64,000 bases of DNA from Terriglobus saanensis SP1PR4 (GTDB lineage: Bacteria; Acidobacteriota; Terriglobia; Terriglobales; Acidobacteriaceae): contig NC_014963.1 in the NCBI RefSeq assembly GCF_000179915.2, forward strand, positions 1,426,001-1,490,000, given 5' to 3'. A model generated the notes under the pieces. It was not told the origin of the DNA. It worked only from the letters and a program-made list of their open reading frames with translations, and ran no database searches. This document shows, piece after piece, positions 21,598 to 31,687 of the stretch. The first letter of the stretch is position 1, and each line of letters begins with the position of its first letter. The position numbers and the translations under genes were made by a program.

Positions 21598-22353
21598 TTA
21601 GGTCTTCTTGATTGCGGAGGACGTTTTTTTCGCCGCCTTCGTCTTGTCTTGTTTGACGTCAAGGAGCGCGGCGCTCATCGAATTGGGACCTGGCCGTTGG
21701 TCGTGGAGAACGACGTTAAGTAATGATTTGTGAACATGAATACGTCCATTGTATTCAATGAATCCCATTTTTCGGAACCGGTTCATGAAAAAGTTCACCC
21801 TGGAACGGGTGGTCCCGATCATGTCCGCCAAGGTCTCTTGCGTAATGCGCGGAATGACCGTCTCTGGTTCGCCAGACTTTCCGAAGTCTGCCATGAGAAG
21901 CAAAATTCTCGCCAATCGTCTTTCGCTGGAGTTAAAGAGTTGATCGACAAGATCGGCCTGTGTCCGCATGGAACGTGCCAGAAGGAAAGCGACAAACAGG
22001 TCGGAGAAAGCGTGTTCAGCATGGAGGACTCGCATCATTTCCGCCCGTTCTATTTTGAGTGCAGAACAGGCAGTGATGGCCGTGGCAGTGGACATGTGCA
22101 AACCCGCGATGGCCGTCACTGATTCCTCTCCAACGAAGTCGCCCGCGGAGATCAGAGTGATTGTCGCTTCCTTCCCAGCCTTAGATACGACCGTAAGTTT
22201 TGCCCGCCCCTTTTGAAGGTAGAAAACTGAATCGGCAGCACTTCCTTGCGAGAATAGGGTTCCATTGGCTTTTATCTGAACGATCCGGCGACCCATGCCT
22301 GAGTTGGCGAGAAAGGCAATCGGATCGAAATCCTGCTTCTTCCGGTGTGGCAT
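21598..22353 (-). CDS. Crp/Fnr-family transcriptional regulator with Lys-rich tail
   Basis: 251 residues. The N-terminal cyclic-nucleotide-binding-fold domain (about 25-140) has GTLFSQGSAADSVFYLQKGR and GDFVGEES. The long dimer helix leads into a winged HTH (TQETLADMIGTTRSRVNFFM, NRFRKMGFIEYNG). No N-terminal Cys cluster is present, so it is not an oxygen-sensing FNR. The last ~27 residues are a Lys/Ala-rich tail absent from its close paralogue at 42937-43587. It is divergent from the alcohol dehydrogenase and electron-transfer genes across 475 bases and is a candidate regulator of them. Confidence 0.92.
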   Translation of the reverse strand: MPHRKKQDFDPIAFLANSGMGRRIVQIKANGTLFSQGSAADSVFYLQKGRAKLTVVSKAGKEATITLISAGDFVGEESVTAIAGLHMSTATAITACSALKIERAEMMRVLHAEHAFSDLFVAFLLARSMRTQADLVDQLFNSSERRLARILLLMADFGKSGEPETVIPRITQETLADMIGTTRSRVNFFMNRFRKMGFIEYNGRIHVHKSLLNVVLHDQRPGPNSMSAALLDVKQDKTKAAKKTSSAIKKT

Positions 22354-22828
22354 TTAGGCCTCTTCCTGTTCGCGGGCTACAGAGCGAACACGTGACCTTT
22401 ATCTAACGCATGGTACGTATACGTGGAGCTGAAGCCGAAAGTTTAGGGCGATCACGCTCACGGCGCGATGGCCCAATGCTGCACTGATCATACCGACAGG
22501 CAGGGAACTGGCCTATGTTGTGAGCAGAAAACGCAGTATTCGTCGTTCGTCACAGCGAGACTGACTGTAGATCCGCCGGCCGCCAGCCACGGCGAGTCCA
22601 CGGCGTGAGCAGTAAACGAGAAGGAAAGAAGCCCCTTATTTGCGATCTGAAACGGGAAACGATTCGATTTTCAAGGCACCGGACGTTCCAACACTAGCGA
22701 AGTAACGAAATTGCGTGCAATCCGATACAGTTTCTTTCTTCCAGGTAGTCCACACTTCAACTCGAGTAACCTGTCGCGTTCCCAATCGATTGTCGATGTG
22801 GCGAGGTCGCTTAGGGAGAAAACGAGCG
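22354..22828. other. Intergenic region between Crp/Fnr and alcohol dehydrogenase
   Basis: No gene is seen. Two similar short strings occur, gtgagcagaaaacgcag near 22519 and gtgagcagtaaacgag near 22604. No clean Crp or Fnr consensus half-site pair was found by eye. Promoters for both flanking genes should lie here. Confidence 0.35.
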
Positions 22829-23857
22829 ATGAAGATGCAAGCAGCTGTCGTCGAGGCATTCGGTCAACCTTTAGTACTGCGCGAGTGGGACATTCCCGTT
22901 GCTGGACCGGGGCAAATCGTGATCAAAACCGAGGCCTGCGGCGTATGTCACACAGACCTGCATGCGGCAAACGGAGACTGGCCTCTCAAACCTGGCTTGC
23001 CATTTATCCCCGGCCACGAAGCCATCGGAAAGGTCACTGAAGTCGGCGCGGGCGTGACAATCGTCAAGGAGGGTGACCGTGTGGGAGTTCCGTGGCTCTA
23101 CTCTGCCTGCGGCCATTGCGAATACTGCCTCAATGCATGGGAGACGGTCTGTCCCGATGCAAAGTTTGGCGGGTATACCAGGAATGGCGGTTTTGCCGAA
23201 TACATCTTGGCGGACCCGAACTACGTAGCCCACATACCGAACGGACTCGCTCCATCGGAAGCTGCGCCTCTCATTTGCGCTGGTATCACTACCTACAAGG
23301 GACTGAAGCAGACCTCGGCGAAACCGGGGCAGTGGGTTGCGATCTCCGGTTGCGGCGGCCTCGGTCATCTTGCAATTCAATATGCCAAAGCTATGGGATT
23401 ACTTGTCTGCGCTGTTGATATCGATGATGGAAAGTTGACGCATGCGAAAGCCCTCGGGGCGGATGTAATTGTCAATGCAAAGCATGAAGATCCGGCCGCA
23501 GCGGTCAAGAAGAGCACCGGTGGCGGGGCGCACGGTGTTCTTATCACGGCGCCGTCGCTGATTGCCTTCAAGCAGGGCATCGGGATGGCCCGTAAACTTG
23601 GCACCTGCGTCCTGGTTGGCCTCCCTCCGGGAGAGTTTCCGGTCCCCCTATTCGACGTGGTTGCGAACTGTATTACCGTCCGCGGATCCTTCGTAGGTAC
23701 TCGCGCGGATATGGCGGAAGCATTGGCTTTTGCTGTCGACGGTAAAGTAAGAGCGGACATCGAACTGCAGCCCTTGTCAGCCATTAACGAAGTCTTCAAT
23801 CGCCTTAGGCACGGAGATGTCCCGGCCCGTGTTGTTCTAAATTTCCAAAGCGCCTGA
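22829..23857 (+). CDS. adhP: Zinc-dependent alcohol dehydrogenase (AdhP/AdhA type)
   Basis: 342 residues from the ATG at 22829, with AGGGAG just upstream; the longer frame from 22715 is not supported. It is a medium-chain dehydrogenase. Catalytic zinc region: CGVCHTD (37-43) and GHE (62-64). Structural zinc Cys: CGHCEYC with a fourth Cys in TVC (94, 97, 100, 108). NAD-binding motif: SGCGGLGHLAIQYAKA. It is close to the cytosolic ethanol-active AdhP group, oxidising short alcohols to aldehydes with NAD. Together with the aldehyde dehydrogenase at 29707-31089 it brackets the electron-transfer genes, which suggests alcohol oxidation feeding this chain. Confidence 0.93.
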   Translation: MKMQAAVVEAFGQPLVLREWDIPVAGPGQIVIKTEACGVCHTDLHAANGDWPLKPGLPFIPGHEAIGKVTEVGAGVTIVKEGDRVGVPWLYSACGHCEYCLNAWETVCPDAKFGGYTRNGGFAEYILADPNYVAHIPNGLAPSEAAPLICAGITTYKGLKQTSAKPGQWVAISGCGGLGHLAIQYAKAMGLLVCAVDIDDGKLTHAKALGADVIVNAKHEDPAAAVKKSTGGGAHGVLITAPSLIAFKQGIGMARKLGTCVLVGLPPGEFPVPLFDVVANCITVRGSFVGTRADMAEALAFAVDGKVRADIELQPLSAINEVFNRLRHGDVPARVVLNFQSA

Positions 23858-23982
23858 TAAAGCACCACTCGATAGTTAAGTCTAATAGTGTGCTTAACTG
23901 CACAGTATCCATTTCGCATCGGGCTCATGCTTGAAGTGTTCTTGTGTTGGACTTCATAAGCTATAGAAGTTCTTTGGCAATC

Positions 23983-24007
23983 GAAATCTCTCAAGAGGAG
24001 AGATTTC
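23983..24007 (+). promoter_or_regulatory. 10-bp stem hairpin ahead of the decaheme cytochrome gene
   Basis: gaaatctctc (23983-23992) pairs exactly with gagagatttc (23998-24007) over a 5-base loop. It ends 31 bases before the ATG at 24039. No U run follows, so it is more likely a leader-RNA element or operator than a terminator. Confidence 0.5.
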
Positions 24008-24038
24008 AGAAGTTGCTCCAGGTCTCAGAAGGCGTGCA

Positions 24039-24956
24039 ATGAAACGATGGCTGACGATTCCGTTGTTGGTAGTCGCTGCCACTTTATGGCCGACGTCTCC
24101 CGGGATGGCCCAGGCCGCCCCCTCAGTGGCAAAGTATACCGCTGCTGCCTCGATGACTGTAGGTTATGTAGGTGCTGAGACCTGCGCCATGTGTCACGCA
24201 GATATCTCAAAGAAGTTTGGTTCAAATCCTCACTCTGAAATGGCACTGACACACGGCGGGAAGGGCGTTACCTGCGAAAGCTGTCACGGTGCGGGGCAGG
24301 CGCACGTAGAATCCGGCGGCGATAAAACAAAGATCTTCAGCTTCCGTACAGCAACACCCAAGATGGTCAATACAAAATGCCTTTCCTGTCATCTTGGAAC
24401 GCATGCGGACTTCGATCGTTCGGCTCACGCTCTCGCAGGAATAGGATGCACGTCCTGTCACAGCAATCACAGCCCGCAGAGTGAACTGCACCTATTGAAG
24501 GTGGCGGAACCCAAGCTTTGTTACACATGCCACACCGATGTGAAGGCGTCGTTCTCGCAACCTTTTCATCACAAGGTGAATGAGGGAGTTATGACTTGCA
24601 GCGATTGTCATAATCCGCATGGCACGTTGCAGGACAAGCTGCTTCGGGCCAACGCCGATCAAAACGCCATTTGTACCAAATGCCATGTCGAAGCGTTGGG
24701 ACCATTCGTCTATGAGCATCCGCCGCTCAAAACCGAAGGCTGCACCGCCTGCCATTTCCCGCACGGTTCTCCAAACGTACGCCTGCTCACGAAGAACAAC
24801 GTCAACTCGCTTTGTCTGCAATGCCACTCGGCATCGATGAACTTCAGCGCGCCAGGCACGCCTTCGTTTCATAACCAGGCAAACCAGTACCAGTCTTGTA
24901 CCAGTTGTCACACCCAGATTCACGGCTCAAATGCCGATCTCGATTTCTTCAAATGA
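24039..24956 (+). CDS. Periplasmic decaheme cytochrome c (MtrA/DmsE type)
   Basis: 305 residues. The signal peptide (MKRWLTIPLLVVAATLW) is cleaved near MAQA. Ten CXXCH haem sites are visible: CAMCH, CESCH, CLSCH, CTSCH, CYTCH, CSDCH, CTKCH, CTACH, CLQCH, CTSCH. Length and haem number fit the DmsE/MtrA/PioA family, which forms a haem wire inserted in an outer-membrane barrel. The barrel gene follows 14 bases downstream. Role: carry electrons between periplasm and cell exterior, in either direction. The Shewanella-type CxxCH spacing pairs are preserved. No outer-surface cytochrome (MtrC/OmcA-like) is encoded nearby. Confidence 0.95.
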   Translation: MKRWLTIPLLVVAATLWPTSPGMAQAAPSVAKYTAAASMTVGYVGAETCAMCHADISKKFGSNPHSEMALTHGGKGVTCESCHGAGQAHVESGGDKTKIFSFRTATPKMVNTKCLSCHLGTHADFDRSAHALAGIGCTSCHSNHSPQSELHLLKVAEPKLCYTCHTDVKASFSQPFHHKVNEGVMTCSDCHNPHGTLQDKLLRANADQNAICTKCHVEALGPFVYEHPPLKTEGCTACHFPHGSPNVRLLTKNNVNSLCLQCHSASMNFSAPGTPSFHNQANQYQSCTSCHTQIHGSNADLDFFK

Positions 24957-24970
24957 GAGGAGAGCCGCAT

Positions 24971-27250
24971 ATGACGAACTCATTGCTGACGCTCCACATT
25001 TTGAAGGCCCCACGCCTGGGCGGGTTCGCGATGGTTGCGTTCTGCATGGGGATGTTTTCGATGGCATTTCCCCGCGCGGAAGCACAGACCAGCCAACCGC
25101 CAGCTACGAGAAGTACCGCACCATCGGCTCCTCTTACTGTTCCGCCCCCTGCTCAGACCCCCACAAAGCCTTCTCCTGATTCCGCTCCAGTGACTCCCAC
25201 AGACAATATTCGCTTTGGATATGCAATCCATCAATCCATCGATTTCGGCACTCACGTCGTCTCACAAAGCGGCAGCGGCGCCATGTATGCCACGCTGGTC
25301 AATATTCAATCTGGCCCTCGTATTCTCGATTTCTCCCTGAATATGGTTTGGGCTCACCCCGGTCACCCTCTTTTGTTCGATCATCTGTCCTCAACCAGCT
25401 TCGGCTATGGTGGAGATCCGAACAACGTTTCCACGCTCAACTTCTCCAAGGGAAAGCTGTACGATTTCCGCGGGACGTTTCGTCGTGACCGCCAGTACTC
25501 CGACTACGATCTCCTCGTGAACCCATTGATACCGTCGACATCGCTTCCTTACGTTCCGGTGCTCCATTCTCCACATCTTTTCAATACGGTTCGCCGTATG
25601 ACGGACTTGAACCTGACGCTGGAGCCTCTGGCAAGGTTCAGCGTTCGGACCGGATACTCGCACATTATCAGCCAGGGTCCCTCGAACAGCACCATCCACG
25701 AAGGGGGGGAAGGCCTTCTCACGCAATTTTGGCGCAACGGTACGGACACCTGGAACGGTGGACTTGACTGGAAAGTCGATCCCCACACAACCATCAGCTT
25801 CGACGAGTTCATTATGCACTACAAGGGTGATACTCACTGGCAACTGACGGGGCTCAACAACGTGCTTTCGAATGGAGCTCCCGTTGCACTCGGAATCGAT
25901 TTGTCGTCGGTATGGGCGACTCCCTGTGCCGCTCCGTTTACCACCAGCGGTACCGTCAATCCAACCTGCAACGCTTTCCTCGGATACAGTCGTTCGGCAC
26001 CGACGCGCACGCTCACACCAACGGAGCAACTGCGCTTTCAGAGTGCTTCGATTCCACGACTCACCTTGAATGGGCGCGTTCTCTACAGTGCCACGACCAG
26101 CAATCTGAGCAACTATAACGAGACATTCAATGGGCTGGTATCGCGCTCTGCGTTGCGAGAATCGGTGGTGACCGGCTCTGCACGCATACGCCGTATTAAC
26201 GTCAATGGTGACCTGAGCTTGACATGGCAGATTACGCCAAAGCTGGCGGCGACGAACCTATATAACTTTGCTGACTTTCGCATCCCAGGCACAAATTCCT
26301 TTACGGAAACTAACTACGCCGGAACAACCTTGCTTGCCGCTCCTGGCGCAACAACGACAACCACGACGCAGGACCATCAGTTTCTCAACCAAAAGACCAA
26401 GACTGATACGTTTCTGATGATCTGGGATGCAACACCTCGTGCGCGTGTGGACGGTGGATTCCGTTATCGCAGTCGCATAATTACCAACGCAGCTGGAGAA
26501 TTTGTTCCGATTCATGAAGACTGGGGTTTGTTCGGTGTCGCGCTGCGTCCTACTCCTTTGCTACGCGTCAACTTCAACGTAGAGGCCATGTATGCGGACA
26601 AATCATTCACCCGCATTAGTCCGCGGCAGATGCAGCACTACATCTTGCGTACGACCTACAAGCCGCACGACTGGTTGACCTTCAACGGCACGGTGAATAT
26701 TCGAGAGAGCCGTGACAACGTACAGACGGTCAACCATCTCGAACATAATCGGGATTTCTCGTTTGGTACATCCTTCTCGCGTAACAGTCATTGGTCGTTT
26801 GACGTCAATTACTCGTACGACGATGTTTTCGCAAGCACACTGCAATGCTATGCCTCGACTCCGGCTCCTCCTACGGCCATAGTCGCGCCTGCCGTTTGCG
26901 TTGCGGCGGCGACACCCTTCGCGAGCACCGGCTACTACAATGCACCCACCCAGTTTGTGTCCTTTGGCTTTATGGTGAACCCAGTCAAGAAGGTACATCT
27001 TAACGGCGGCTATCGCGTGAGCGCGGTCAATGGCACAACCGACGCCATCAATATCCGCCAGGTGCCCGGCTCTCTCCAGTCGCAGTTCCATACTCCCTAC
27101 GCGAATGTTGCTTATGATCTTGCCCCCAACTGGATGTGGAAAGGCGACTACAACTTCTACGGTTATGGGGAGGGCGGTCCGAGCGGACCTACCCTGCCTC
27201 GCAGCTTCCACGGAAATATCTGCACGCTCGCAGTTCATTACGCCTTCTAA
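24971..27250 (+). CDS. MtrB/PioB-type outer-membrane beta-barrel of a porin-cytochrome conduit
   Basis: About 760 residues from the ATG at 24971, with GAGGAGAGCC ahead. Signal peptide MTNSLLTLHILKAP to AEAQ, then a Pro/Thr-rich spacer (about 42-70). The rest alternates amphipathic strands typical of a large barrel (FSVRTGYSHI, FDVNYSYDDVF, KKVHLNGGYRVSA) and ends in a terminal aromatic strand (CTLAVHYAF). Size and position next to the decaheme gene match MtrB/PioB, the sleeve that holds the cytochrome across the outer membrane. No N-terminal CXXC pair of the Shewanella MtrB type was seen. Transcribed with its neighbours in one operon. Confidence 0.88.
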   Translation: MTNSLLTLHILKAPRLGGFAMVAFCMGMFSMAFPRAEAQTSQPPATRSTAPSAPLTVPPPAQTPTKPSPDSAPVTPTDNIRFGYAIHQSIDFGTHVVSQSGSGAMYATLVNIQSGPRILDFSLNMVWAHPGHPLLFDHLSSTSFGYGGDPNNVSTLNFSKGKLYDFRGTFRRDRQYSDYDLLVNPLIPSTSLPYVPVLHSPHLFNTVRRMTDLNLTLEPLARFSVRTGYSHIISQGPSNSTIHEGGEGLLTQFWRNGTDTWNGGLDWKVDPHTTISFDEFIMHYKGDTHWQLTGLNNVLSNGAPVALGIDLSSVWATPCAAPFTTSGTVNPTCNAFLGYSRSAPTRTLTPTEQLRFQSASIPRLTLNGRVLYSATTSNLSNYNETFNGLVSRSALRESVVTGSARIRRINVNGDLSLTWQITPKLAATNLYNFADFRIPGTNSFTETNYAGTTLLAAPGATTTTTTQDHQFLNQKTKTDTFLMIWDATPRARVDGGFRYRSRIITNAAGEFVPIHEDWGLFGVALRPTPLLRVNFNVEAMYADKSFTRISPRQMQHYILRTTYKPHDWLTFNGTVNIRESRDNVQTVNHLEHNRDFSFGTSFSRNSHWSFDVNYSYDDVFASTLQCYASTPAPPTAIVAPAVCVAAATPFASTGYYNAPTQFVSFGFMVNPVKKVHLNGGYRVSAVNGTTDAINIRQVPGSLQSQFHTPYANVAYDLAPNWMWKGDYNFYGYGEGGPSGPTLPRSFHGNICTLAVHYAF

Positions 27251-27277
27251 GGCCATGCCCACATCACGGAGATCACT

Positions 27278-27592
27278 ATGAAATTTCTTTACGCTGCCAC
27301 TCTCTCTGCAGTTGCTATTTTTTGCATGGCTACTGTCAGTCACGCGCAAGCGCCCACAAATCCCTACGCCGCAAAATGCCAGATGTGCCATGGCGCGACG
27401 GGATTAGGGGACACCCCCGCAGGAAAGATGATGGGTGCTCGTGCATTCAATGCGCCGGATGTGATCAAACAATCAGACTCAGATCTTCTCACTGTAATCA
27501 AGAGCGGTAAGGGCAAGATGCCTGCCTTTGCTGGTAAGTTGACCGACCCGGAGATGACGGCATTGGTCGCTTACATCCGCAAACTGCAATAG
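27278..27592 (+). CDS. Small periplasmic monoheme cytochrome c
   Basis: 104 residues, with signal peptide MKFLYAATLSAVAIFCMAT to SHAQA. One haem site, CQMCHG, is followed by the class I cytochrome fold with the axial-Met region GKGKMPAFAGKLTD and the C-terminal helix MTALVAYIRKLQ. It is placed 27 bases after the outer-membrane barrel and 63 before the Rieske gene. It is a natural shuttle between the quinol oxidoreductase encoded downstream and the decaheme conduit encoded upstream. Confidence 0.92.
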   Translation: MKFLYAATLSAVAIFCMATVSHAQAPTNPYAAKCQMCHGATGLGDTPAGKMMGARAFNAPDVIKQSDSDLLTVIKSGKGKMPAFAGKLTDPEMTALVAYIRKLQ

Positions 27593-27655
27593 ACGACGGC
27601 GATATTCGTCGACGAACTGATTCAAATATTACGCGTCAGCAGGGATGGGAAGAAC

Positions 27656-28207
27656 ATGGAAGAACTGATCGAAAAGCGGGAAGACACGGAAGTCGCAGAG
27701 CCGACCGGGAGACGCTCGTTCGTCATGGCAATGTTCGCGGTATGTGGAAGTGTGGTGGCCGCGTTATTGGCTGTCCCACTCTTCCGTTTTGCCACCTTTC
27801 CGCTTCGTAAAACTGAAAGTGAGACCGAATGGTCCGATGTCGGACTGGTCTCTGAATTCACGTCACTGACTGCGCCTGTTGCAAAGACCATCACGTTGGA
27901 ACGGCGGGACGCGTGGCAAACGACCTCCTCACAAACCGCTGTCTACGTATTGCCGGCCAAGAATGGAGAGCTTCGGGTGCTTTCGCCGATATGCCCACAT
28001 CTTGGTTGCTCCGTGCAGTGGCAGGATGCGCAAAATAAATTCATCTGCCCTTGTCACTCGGGATCGTTCACTGCGGAGGGCGAGCGCCTCGGTGGGCCGC
28101 CACCGCGTTCGATGGATGCCCTCGAAGCGAAGGTGGAGGATGGCACCTTGAAGGTCCGTTACCAATACTTCCGTCAACTGGTCTCCAACAAAGAACCAAT
28201 GGCTTAG
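27656..28207 (+). CDS. Rieske iron-sulfur subunit of a quinol:cytochrome c oxidoreductase
   Basis: 183 residues. An N-terminal cytoplasmic stretch ends in GRRSFVMAMF, a Tat-like start of the single membrane anchor (about 20-45). The Rieske cluster ligands are in CPHLGC (113-118) and CPCHSGSF (131-138), and the disulfide Cys pair is present. GGPPPRSMDALEAKVEDG is the usual Pro loop. It takes an electron from quinol at the outer face of the inner membrane. Cytochrome b follows 13 bases downstream, and no separate cytochrome c1 gene is seen. Confidence 0.94.
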   Translation: MEELIEKREDTEVAEPTGRRSFVMAMFAVCGSVVAALLAVPLFRFATFPLRKTESETEWSDVGLVSEFTSLTAPVAKTITLERRDAWQTTSSQTAVYVLPAKNGELRVLSPICPHLGCSVQWQDAQNKFICPCHSGSFTAEGERLGGPPPRSMDALEAKVEDGTLKVRYQYFRQLVSNKEPMA

Positions 28208-28220
28208 GCGAGGAAAGATC

Positions 28221-29687
28221 ATGTCGAATCAACTCATCCCTGAACAGGACAAGAAGCCCAAAATCGTGGACCGGGTCGATTCCTGGTTTGACGATCGCAC
28301 CGGGATTGACTCGATCCTCCACGAGTCGTTGGATGAACCGATCCATGGTGGCGCAAGCTGGGCCTATATCTTCGGCTCTGGCCTCCTGTTCTTGTTCATG
28401 TCACAGGTCATCACGGGCGTCTTCCTGGCGCTTTACTATGTCCCGTCGGCGGACCATGCACACACGGTGGTGTCGTATATCGTCAAGGTTGTTTCGGCAG
28501 GTTCGTTCATTCGCAGTATCCATGCCTACGGATCGAGCGGCATCATCATCCTATTGTGCCTGCATATTGGACAGACCGTACTCTATGGGTCCTATAAAGG
28601 ACGCCGCGAGCTGCTTTGGCTATCGGGCTGCATTCTGATGGCGCTTATGCTCGGCATGGCCTTCACGGGTTATCTTCTGCCCTGGGATGAAAAGGCTTAC
28701 TTCGCGACCGCCGTTGGAACAAACCTCATTGCGGAAGTTCCCTGGATCGGTCCGATTCTGCAGAAACTCGTGCGCGGCGGCGACCAAATGGGAACGCTTA
28801 CTCTGTCGCGCTTCTTTGTGTTTCACGTCTTCATTCTGCCTGGAATGTTGATCGCGTTCATCGTTGGCCATATCTTCTTTTTCCGTAAGGCCGGAGCAGC
28901 GGGGCCTATCAAGGAAGATCCCGTGAACCCGCGTCTTCCCTCCGTGCCTTTTTATCCGCGCCAGGTATTCATGGATGCGGCGTTCGCTATCGTATTAATA
29001 GGCATTCTTGCTGTGATTGCGAAGACGATCCCGATGGATCTTGGGCCAGCTGCTAATCCTGCCGACACTCATTTTCTGCCGCGTCCGGAATGGTATTACC
29101 GGCCTGCTTTCCAATGGCTGAAGTACCTCAGTGGGCGCTGGTCGTTGGTCGGCGGAATTATGCTTCCCGCGTTGCTCGCGCTTATTTTTGCTGCGGCTCC
29201 CTTCCTCGATCGTCGCCTGGAGCGTAGACCCTGGAAGCGTCCCATCTCGGTTGGCGCATTCTTCCTCTTTCTCATCGTCTACACGGGCCTTGGAATTGCC
29301 AGCTACCGCGATGACTACAGTGATCCATCCATGGCCTCCCAGATGCACGCGCAGGATGCGGACGCTCGCCGCTTCATGGCAGCTCCCTTTGTTCCGGAGT
29401 CCACGGCAGGAAGCGTCTCTGCCAACCTTGCTTCCGCGGATCCAATGGTGGCGAAGGGGCATGCCCTGTTTCAAGCGCAGTCGTGCAACTCCTGCCATGG
29501 AGAAGGCGGAGTTGGCACCGCCGCGGCAGGCGCATTGACTGGGGTTGCTGGGAAATACACCGACGCCCAGCTTGAGGCGCTCTTGCAGGCGCCCAATAGC
29601 ACGATGAGCGGAGGCGGAATGCAGCCCGTCGTGATGAAGCCGGCAGACCTCGAAGCGCTAAGCACCTATCTTCGCCAACTTCATTAA
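28221..29687 (+). CDS. Cytochrome b fused to a C-terminal cytochrome c domain
   Basis: 488 residues. The four-helix haem b core has His pairs at 101/115 and 202/217. The spacing of 13 and 14 intervening residues is the b6-like pattern. The quinol-site motif PEWY is intact (289-292). Further helices resembling subunit IV span about 300-360. A periplasmic linker then leads to a single cytochrome c site, CNSCHG (422-427), with a Met-bearing region (GGGMQPVVMKP). The fused cytochrome c replaces cytochrome c1. With the Rieske protein it forms a compact bc complex that oxidises quinol, or could run in reverse if electrons enter through the conduit upstream. Confidence 0.94.
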   Translation: MSNQLIPEQDKKPKIVDRVDSWFDDRTGIDSILHESLDEPIHGGASWAYIFGSGLLFLFMSQVITGVFLALYYVPSADHAHTVVSYIVKVVSAGSFIRSIHAYGSSGIIILLCLHIGQTVLYGSYKGRRELLWLSGCILMALMLGMAFTGYLLPWDEKAYFATAVGTNLIAEVPWIGPILQKLVRGGDQMGTLTLSRFFVFHVFILPGMLIAFIVGHIFFFRKAGAAGPIKEDPVNPRLPSVPFYPRQVFMDAAFAIVLIGILAVIAKTIPMDLGPAANPADTHFLPRPEWYYRPAFQWLKYLSGRWSLVGGIMLPALLALIFAAAPFLDRRLERRPWKRPISVGAFFLFLIVYTGLGIASYRDDYSDPSMASQMHAQDADARRFMAAPFVPESTAGSVSANLASADPMVAKGHALFQAQSCNSCHGEGGVGTAAAGALTGVAGKYTDAQLEALLQAPNSTMSGGGMQPVVMKPADLEALSTYLRQLH

Positions 29688-29706
29688 TCGAACGGAAGGA
29701 ATACCT

Positions 29707-31089
29707 ATGCCATACGAAAGCACTAATCCTTACACAGGGGAGCGCACGATGCAGTTCCCGGAACATACGAGCGCCCAGGTTGAATCAGCCGTCGCACAAG
29801 CCGATACATGTTTTGCAAGCTGGAAGGAAACTTCATACGCGCAAAGGAAGTCCATCCTCGAAAAGGCAGCAAAAATCCTACGATCACGAACGGATGAGTT
29901 CGCCAATTTGATCACGTTGGAGATGGGGAAGCTGATTGGAGAGAGTCGAGGTGAAGTAGCTCTCAGTGCAGACATCATCGATTATTACGCTGAGAATGGA
30001 GAATCCTTTCTCGCTCCAGTGCAGCTTTCTCCAAAGAACGGCGAGGCGGTCATCGCGAGCGCTCCTATTGGTGTCCTCTTCGGGATCGAGCCATGGAATT
30101 TCCCCTACTACCAACTCGCGCGTTTCGTTGCACCGAATCTGATGGCTGGCAACGTCGTGATGGTAAAGCACGCGCCGTCTGTGCCTCAGTGTGCTCTTGC
30201 CTTTGTCGCGTTGTTCAAGGAAGCGGGCGCGCCCGAAGGAGCCTACACGAATCTCTTCGTATCCGACGAGGAGGCCGATCGGCTTATCGATGATCCGCGC
30301 ATCAAGGGGGTGGCTGTTACTGGCAGTGAACGCGCGGGATCTGCGGTCGCGGCACAGGCTGGCAGGAACCTCAAGAAATCTACGATGGAACTCGGAGGGA
30401 GTGATGCGTTCATCGTCCTCGAAGATGCAGAAATGGATAAGACCGTGGAGTGGGCGGTTTGGGGAAGAATGAATAACACCGGACAATGCTGCGTGGCTGC
30501 GAAGCGGTTCATCGTGGTTGAAAGCGTTGCCGATGTCTTTCTCGCTAAGTTTCAGGCGGCACTCCAGTCACTGATCCCGGGAGACCCGATGGAAGCTGCA
30601 ACAACTCTGGGCCCGCTCTGCTCAGAAGCTGCTCTCCTCCATCTCCTCGACCAGGTCAAACGTTCGGTCAGCGCGGGGGCTCACGTGTTGATCGGGGGAG
30701 GAAGATTGGACCGGAAGGGAGCCTTCATGCAGCCGTCGATTCTGACCGATATCAAGAAAGGTACGCCCGCCTACGATGAGGAATTCTTCGGGCCCGTAGC
30801 ACTCTTCTTTCGCGTCGCGAATGAGGATGAGGCGGTACAGCTTGCGAATGATTCCAAGTACGGCCTGGGCGGTTCTGTTTTCACCGCGGATACCGTTCGA
30901 GGAAAGCGGATTGCCGATCGAATAGAAACCGGAATGGTTTTCATCAACCATCCGACGTGGACCGCGCCTGAATTGCCATTCGGCGGTGTCAAGAACTCGG
31001 GCTATGGCCGGGAGCTCTCCAGTCTGGGCATCCAAGAATTCGTTAACAAGAAGTTGGTTTGTGTCGTTCCAATTGACGCTCCGGCCTAG
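29707..31089 (+). CDS. NAD(P)-dependent aldehyde dehydrogenase (succinate-semialdehyde type)
   Basis: 460 residues. The ALDH landmarks are present: FGIEPWNFPYYQLARFVAPN, TGSERAGSAVAAQAG, the general-base Glu in MELGGSDAF, the nucleophile in NNTGQCCVAAKR, and EEFFGPVALFF near the C-terminus. Closest type: the succinate-semialdehyde/YneI-like group. It oxidises an aldehyde to the acid in the cytosol and makes NAD(P)H. It starts 19 bases after the cytochrome b/c gene on the same strand, so it is probably in the same transcript. With the upstream alcohol dehydrogenase it may deliver reducing equivalents to the respiratory module. Confidence 0.93.
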   Translation: MPYESTNPYTGERTMQFPEHTSAQVESAVAQADTCFASWKETSYAQRKSILEKAAKILRSRTDEFANLITLEMGKLIGESRGEVALSADIIDYYAENGESFLAPVQLSPKNGEAVIASAPIGVLFGIEPWNFPYYQLARFVAPNLMAGNVVMVKHAPSVPQCALAFVALFKEAGAPEGAYTNLFVSDEEADRLIDDPRIKGVAVTGSERAGSAVAAQAGRNLKKSTMELGGSDAFIVLEDAEMDKTVEWAVWGRMNNTGQCCVAAKRFIVVESVADVFLAKFQAALQSLIPGDPMEAATTLGPLCSEAALLHLLDQVKRSVSAGAHVLIGGGRLDRKGAFMQPSILTDIKKGTPAYDEEFFGPVALFFRVANEDEAVQLANDSKYGLGGSVFTADTVRGKRIADRIETGMVFINHPTWTAPELPFGGVKNSGYGRELSSLGIQEFVNKKLVCVVPIDAPA

Positions 31090-31124
31090 CCTCCGCTATG
31101 TCGAGGAAAGTACATTACATCCCT

Positions 31125-31153
31125 CCGGGAAGCGCCTGACGAGGCGTTTCCGG
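31125..31153 (+). terminator. GC-rich hairpin after the aldehyde dehydrogenase
   Basis: gggaagcgcct (31127-31137) pairs with aggcgtttcc (31142-31151), with one G-U pair, around a GACG tetraloop. It lies about 35 bases past the stop codon. No strong U tract, but position and stability suggest the end of the electron-transfer operon. Confidence 0.5.
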
Positions 31154-31687
31154 AGCGAACATTGAATTCCGATCTTGAAGTGATGCTGACGTCGCCTTTC
31201 ACGGAGCACCCGAAACAGTCCGCCGTGGCTCTTTTTCGCAGGCGGGTTTTCTGATCCGAAGACCATGATCGTGTAGTGCCAAAGTCGCCGATCATAACTG
31301 TGGCGATCACTAGATGCGGAGGCCGTCTCTTAGTGTCTGTCTGATCTGTCTCATCTGTTCTTGAGTCGCATCGAGATAAGCTTTTACCCGTGTCGTGTCG
31401 GGTCGTTCGTGCTATGTTCGGCGAGATAGATAAGGTCCTCAAGATCCGGCTCCGGAACTTGCTGGAGCCACTGTCTGGGTACATTCCTGTCCGTATGCTG
31501 ATGAAGAATCCCGCTCTCGCGTCGGAATCAATAACTCTATTTACTCTGAATTCGTTAGCGCTGACTAGATGAAATCCTGCGACATCTGCCAAAACACCAG
31601 CAATATTCGCAATATTTCTATAGAGATACTTAACAGCAGATGATACTGTTGCCACTCCCGCAGAGAACTGAATGGGAGGGGTACAAG
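31154..31687. other. Intergenic region, no gene seen
   Basis: Open frames on both strands here lack codon bias, a ribosome-binding site and family motifs. I see no tRNA or mobile-element remnant. Confidence 0.4.

Follow-up and report, generated by a model that had tools for sequence, protein, structure and literature searches.

A putative decahaem-barrel conduit in one run with a b6-like bc complex in Terriglobus saanensis SP1PR4: a probable electron-transfer line between the cell outside and the quinone pool

Acid and tundra soils are rich in Acidobacteriota, whose oxidation or reduction of iron and humic substances is an unsettled question. A run of five genes in Terriglobus saanensis SP1PR4 brings this question to a single locus: do a putative outer-membrane conduit and a bc complex, encoded side by side, constitute one electron-transfer line, and in which direction would electrons travel along it? 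The locus lies within a stretch of 64,000 nucleotides (the window; contig NC_014963.1, positions 1,426,001 to 1,490,000) of a complete genome of 5,095,226 bases. Judged from the sequence, it quite probably encodes one line between the cell outside and the quinone pool, which is a statement about wiring and not about direction. With one cultured aerobic strain that carries one decahaem gene set and a linked bc complex, the iron/humic question becomes experimentally testable.

The run starts with a DmsE-family decahaem cytochrome c (24039-24956, + strand, 305 aa) that has ten CXXCH motifs, a signal-peptide-like N terminus and a TIGR03508 score of 262.5 bits (cut-off 192.2), which confirms the ten-haem MtrA/DmsE-type cytochrome named in the preliminary description. 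Next is the decahaem-associated, outer-membrane-type barrel (24971-27250, + strand, 759 aa), which is without CXXCH, has the C-terminal end YAF and in relatives has DmsE immediately 5' of it. A 784-aa reading of the barrel gene, from 24896, overlaps the decahaem gene and was rejected, the barrel ATG being at 24971. More generally, ORFs were read from the first possible start, so that some proteins are too long N-terminally and alignment A1 carries a surplus residue at the window start. The barrel is followed by a periplasmic monohaem cytochrome c (27278-27592, + strand, 104 aa, CQMCH; PF13442 50.5 bits, PF00034 36.7 bits), a Rieske [2Fe-2S] subunit (27656-28207, + strand, 183 aa, CPHLGC...CPCHSGSF; PF00355 45.1 bits) and a cytochrome b, composed of a b6-like and a subunit IV-like part, with a fused C-terminal monohaem cytochrome c (28221-29687, + strand, PEWY; PF00033 156.8, PF00032 31.4 and PF00034 36.9 bits). 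These last three proteins all exceed the cut-offs of their Pfam families. The order, the common + strand and the short gaps (14, 27, 63 and 13 nt) were all verified.

The Rieske ligands and disulphide cysteines (CPHLGC...CPCHSG) and the RPEWYY motif of cytochrome b are those of a bc complex, and PF00355 and PF00033 both score over cut-off. The separate cytochrome c1 subunit of the bc1 type is missing; there is instead the C-terminal monohaem domain on cytochrome b, and CNSCH at residue 422 is the sole CXXCH of this protein. Its histidine spacings, H-x13-H and H-x14-H as read from the sequence, follow what we take to be a b6-like pattern, and among the NCBIfam models one for cytochrome b6 matches it best, though under cut-off. 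The window Rieske protein is without the Ser and Tyr residues by which the potential of such proteins is raised. Elsewhere in the host genome there is a second bc complex, 27-29% identical, which adjoins an oxidase and can serve normal respiration. Five COX1 matches (haem-copper oxidases) were found, and T. saanensis is listed as 'aerobic' with five type-A oxidases (PMC5900883). No NapC/NrfH/CymA-type gene is over cut-off in the host genome, and the window bc complex is therefore the obvious inner-membrane partner. The reported absence of a surface MtrC-like cytochrome nearby holds for the five-gene run; genome-wide the evidence consists of the PF09699 model, which in a search of the whole genome returned the decahaem gene only and no further multihaem gene. 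A weak second match to the DmsE model in the same genome (G000:C1:4844752-4844919, L004) lies in an open frame of 308 aa and, at 19.8 bits, stays below cut-off.

The assignment of the barrel to the MtrB/PioB type has to be divided: it fails by curated models and stands as distant homology. Neither PF11854 nor TIGR03509 matches the window barrel, and TIGR03509 has no match at E<=10 on the host genome; the barrels of two relatives, L140 and L036, are scored by PF11854 at 1e-97 and 7e-93. When 70 window-type barrels were compared by hhalign with 30 checked PF11854 members, 614 columns were aligned at Prob 99.1 and E 5.1e-19, with unrelated-barrel controls at 0.5% (Cyc2-like) and 1.25% (TonB-type). 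Five of the 35 candidate MtrB rows (L212, L218, L221, L223, L226), unmatched by a five-row MtrB profile, had been dropped; with all 35 the values were Prob 98.9 and E 1.8e-17. A first comparison with few rows (36 vs 5 true MtrB rows) had given 19.6%. A PDB profile search with the barrel returned nothing at E<=10, and AlphaFold2, run on an alignment of 5 rows with a 26-strand barrel around the decahaem as the fold in question, gave a mean pLDDT of 28.4. Because there is no curated match yet homology at the profile level, together with a decahaem-type gene 5' of the barrel in relatives, the barrel is by profile comparison a sister family of MtrB/PioB, a distant homologue and not a member. The barrel follows a decahaem-kind multihaem gene also in other acidobacterial families (6/6 loci, L192-L197, some cut short). 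Across a phylum sample, window-type barrels at E<=1e-20 occur in 44/297 genomes and PF11854 over cut-off in 68/297. A group of decahaem conduits that occurs widely in the host's family therefore escapes the MtrB/PioB models. Tandem conduits were seen in L250 and L251, where DmsE and a true MtrB lie right beside DmsE and a window-type barrel; in L250 the same run also includes Rieske and cytochrome b genes and one for a 6-haem protein.

Is the link between conduit and bc complex kept in relatives? The cytochrome b-c protein has matches at E<=1e-60 in 84/398 genomes of the host's family, and 43 bc loci were examined (the window, L036, L087 and 40 fetched regions, L138-L177), which represent the top of the similarity ranking and no random draw. 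A conduit gene is present within ~6 kb in 36 of the 43. The five-gene order is intact in nine distinct acidobacterial loci (the window, L087, L138, L139, L141, L142, L144, L145 and L146), which makes a chance arrangement very unlikely; the flanks of these nine vary. DmsE with a true MtrB is found in two further loci (L036, L140) and a Cyc2-like fused cytochrome-porin in 24 (21 rows of the cytochrome b tree plus L161, L164 and L169), while L147 has a different monohaem porin as its conduit. At 9586-11340 of L147 a monohaem barrel-like protein (IPAYARRYNLRCYACH) and a 128-aa monohaem gene stand in the conduit place. The seven loci with no recognised conduit include L143, whose contig ends just upstream, and L148, L149, L152, L154 and L157, in which cytochrome c, Rieske and cytochrome b-c genes have no conduit found nearby. 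Two conduits surround one bc module in L176 (Cyc2-like gene, Rieske, cytochrome b, DmsE and barrel, all adjacent), and in L238, from another acidobacterial family, Rieske, cytochrome b-c, DmsE and MtrB genes lie in a row.

Relatives, and relatives only, were checked for the motif AXPXFAR[Q/K][T/Y] before CXXCH in a protein of at least 365 aa, the motif being the defining one for Cyc2 (PMC8406198). The exact motif occurs in 15/40 fetched bc loci, L161, L164 and L169 all among them, and a relaxed pattern in 24/40, L147 included; L162 fails both patterns and L153 has only a 320-aa ORF. Of the 24 Cyc2-like loci, 15 have the exact motif and the rest variants. In the Cyc2-linked relatives L160, L163, L165, L167, L168 and L170-L177 the cytochrome b is ~860-1120 aa long with four or five CXXCH, vs ~490 aa with one.

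A tree of cytochrome b (40 bc rows, rooted against an outgroup of 2; L161, L164 and L169 were left out, no ORF being labelled there) places all decahaem-linked bc rows except L036 within one set of 12 rows with support 100/99. The same set also holds L140 with its true MtrB, L147 with the other porin and the cut contig L143. Within it L140 (DmsE and a true PF11854 barrel) is sister to the five-gene locus L096 (99/91), and L146 (DmsE and barrel) and L147 (monohaem porin) have near-identical cytochromes b, on branches of 0.013 and 0.028. L036, which has a true MtrB, pairs with L176 among the Cyc2-linked rows (100/100). Mixed conduits inside supported sets of the bc tree therefore indicate that the outer conduit was exchanged while the bc module stayed.

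The exchange can be followed from the conduit side as well. In 60 regions around the best decahaem matches, 52 have the window-type barrel, and the genes downstream of these 52 are ImcH-like (17 loci), CbcL-like together with ImcH-like (6), CbcL-like only (4), NrfH-like (4), a cytochrome b accompanied by a 9-haem cytochrome (3, in one of them on the opposite strand) or a bc module (1); in 13 none was recognised, and 4 are cut by the contig end. For one or two representatives of each kind the module names come from Pfam/NCBIfam scans, for the others from haem counts. From this side the link to a bc complex is rare, one barrel in 52. ImcH itself is marked by three transmembrane segments and CX3CH; among the relatives, the ImcH-like proteins of L045 and L061 have CX3CH and a NapC/NirT-type domain, with transmembrane segments read by eye. 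In a tree of 51/66 barrels (2 duplicates, 6 contig-end-cut barrels and 7 of 15 without a recognised partner were dropped) a quick method counts 5 or more changes of the bc label, even when only supported branches are considered, and bc-linked and ImcH-linked barrels are interleaved near the window barrel. An ImcH-like gene follows the DmsE/barrel pair at L045 3853-5283 and in 16 similar loci. A published survey of quinol modules found no mtrAB adjoining imcH (PMC6295460); here DmsE/barrel pairs do adjoin ImcH-like genes, but their barrel is outside the MtrB models. We propose, with confidence that stops somewhat short of even, that conduits (decahaem and barrel, MtrAB, Cyc2-like, monohaem porin) and quinol modules (bc, ImcH-, CbcL- and NrfH-like) may be exchanged like plug-in parts, with a small cytochrome c at the centre, and that soil Acidobacteriota may have a bc complex dedicated to outside exchange, Q-cycle-coupled or in reverse.

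How do these arrangements compare with known systems? As in MtoAB, PioAB and MtrAB, a decahaem of the DmsE/MtrA kind is followed by an outer-membrane-type barrel, and as in MtoAB and PioAB there is no MtrC in the window run; the differences are that the window barrel falls outside PF11854/TIGR03509, related by profile comparison only, and that the inner-membrane partner is a bc complex and not CymA/MtoC or HiPIP. The co-encoding of conduit and bc complex had been presented as unusual, which as worded does not hold: in the Geobacter extHIJKLMNOPQS cluster, porin (ExtI), multihaem cytochromes, Rieske (ExtO) and cytochrome b (ExtP) are already joined (PMC5877670, PMC2825233), and a porin-bc cluster as such is therefore known. 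The ext cluster differs in that the accounts cited describe several multihaems and no pair of decahaem and MtrB-like protein with a monohaem shuttle; ExtP is a 23 kDa cytochrome b and the porin has 45 kDa. In a limited sequence comparison the ExtP model gives the window cytochrome b 180.6 bits, against a cut-off of 290. With the Cyc2 pathway and its reverse bc1 the locus shares a bc module that in relatives adjoins Cyc2-motif porins, but the window unit has no Cyc2-like gene and uses decahaem and barrel. ImcH, CbcL/MtoC/MtrH and CymA are represented by the ImcH-, CbcL- and NrfH-like genes that fill the slot after DmsE/barrel in relatives; they are multihaem quinol dehydrogenases without Rieske, and the window uses a bc complex. 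In T. saanensis itself, mtrA/mtrB candidates without a complete mtr/omc set have been listed (PMC5900883) and a peat metagenome study has the species among its acidobacterial decahaem sequences (PMC3669403), thus the decahaem/barrel pair is not new. In the open-access literature searched we found no report of such a pair and a bc complex encoded in a single run, which does not prove that there is none, and no report of Cyc2-like genes beside this bc module or of the two-way swapping.

The proposed path would connect an outside partner with menaquinone by way of the barrel-held decahaem, the small and then the tethered cytochrome c, and the Rieske protein with cytochrome b. The decahaem, held by the large barrel, would cross the outer membrane, the small monohaem cytochrome c would span the periplasm as far as the cytochrome c domain attached to the b6-like bc complex, and this complex would exchange electrons with menaquinone. 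The comparisons show the gene set, its conservation and the swapping at its two ends; that the proteins touch as proposed, that menaquinone is the quinone and which way electrons flow are inferred. As a wiring plan, the earlier proposal of a path from quinol via bc complex, cytochrome c and decahaem to the outside, or its reverse, is supported, bc complex and conduit being repeatedly linked and each swapped for functional equivalents in relatives. The complex might also be an ordinary aerobic respiratory one, its decahaem/barrel neighbourhood reflecting co-regulation or accident, and the five loci listed above with no conduit nearby, within 7/43 in all where none was recognised, speak for this; conduits of four kinds in 36/43 loci, their replacement inside a supported set and the other bc complex beside an oxidase in the same genome make it improbable. 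The DmsE-family membership of the decahaem would suit an extracellular DMSO-type reductase (DmsEF-like) with its catalytic subunits elsewhere, and yet none of the eight proteins scanned at the locus is a molybdenum reductase, so this reading deserves very little credence.

Regarding direction, inward flow is slightly favoured and is given an even chance, because the bc module has Cyc2-like partners, the host is aerobic with five oxidases and there is a precedent for bc1 in reverse: Cyc2 oxidizes Fe(II), and reverse operation of a bc1 complex has been proposed for Fe oxidizers (PMC8406198, PMC7029218). Electrons of Fe(II) or reduced humics would enter by the decahaem, most of them passing via cytochrome c to the aerobic oxidases and a part going uphill via the bc complex to the quinone pool; if so, an aerobic heterotroph would be drawing electrons from Fe(II) or humics. 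No RuBisCO was found in the host, therefore there is no obvious need for uphill electrons, which counts against inward flow, as do the ImcH-like or CbcL-like genes in 27/52 DmsE/barrel relatives, modules known or proposed for outward flow. Outward respiration, to which we give roughly one chance in three, would have the bc complex oxidize menaquinol with a Q cycle and send the electrons on by cytochrome c to the decahaem and barrel, with Fe(III), humics or some other outside acceptor receiving them at low oxygen. Quinol oxidation is the normal bc chemistry, a Rieske protein without the potential-raising Ser/Tyr would suit menaquinol, and homologous conduits in the family are then followed by ImcH-like (CX3CH), CbcL-like and NrfH-like quinol modules. 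However, the host is on record only as aerobic, anaerobic respiration being given as untypical of its subdivision (PMC5900883), and bc-module relatives adjoin Cyc2-like proteins. Transfer from a high-potential cytochrome c to a low-potential decahaem is an uphill step, and outward flow would be uphill if the cytochrome c here feeds the decahaem in that way. If true, outward flow would mean extracellular respiration in which the quinol oxidase, in contrast to CymA or ImcH, conserves energy; a small share of our expectation is left to something other than either direction.

The unit is bordered by same-strand genes for an alcohol and an aldehyde dehydrogenase. Upstream lies a zinc alcohol dehydrogenase (AdhP-like; 22832-23857, + strand, PF00107, PF08240, 342 bits on the AdhP model with a cut-off of 344), and the aldehyde dehydrogenase (29707-31089, + strand, PF00171 461.6 bits) starts just 19 nt 3' of the cytochrome b-c gene and is possibly co-transcribed with the five genes. 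Both were considered as members of the unit and left out, because neither is conserved next to it in relatives. Further upstream a Crp/Fnr-type regulator (21598-22353, - strand, PF00027, PF13545) is divergent. A sigma-70-like promoter was not matched in 22300-31300, a null of little weight. In the same genus, 0/18 genomes listed have the bc protein at E<=1e-60, so that the unit is unevenly distributed and may have been acquired or have been lost many times. Inverted repeats upstream of the unit were spotted by eye.
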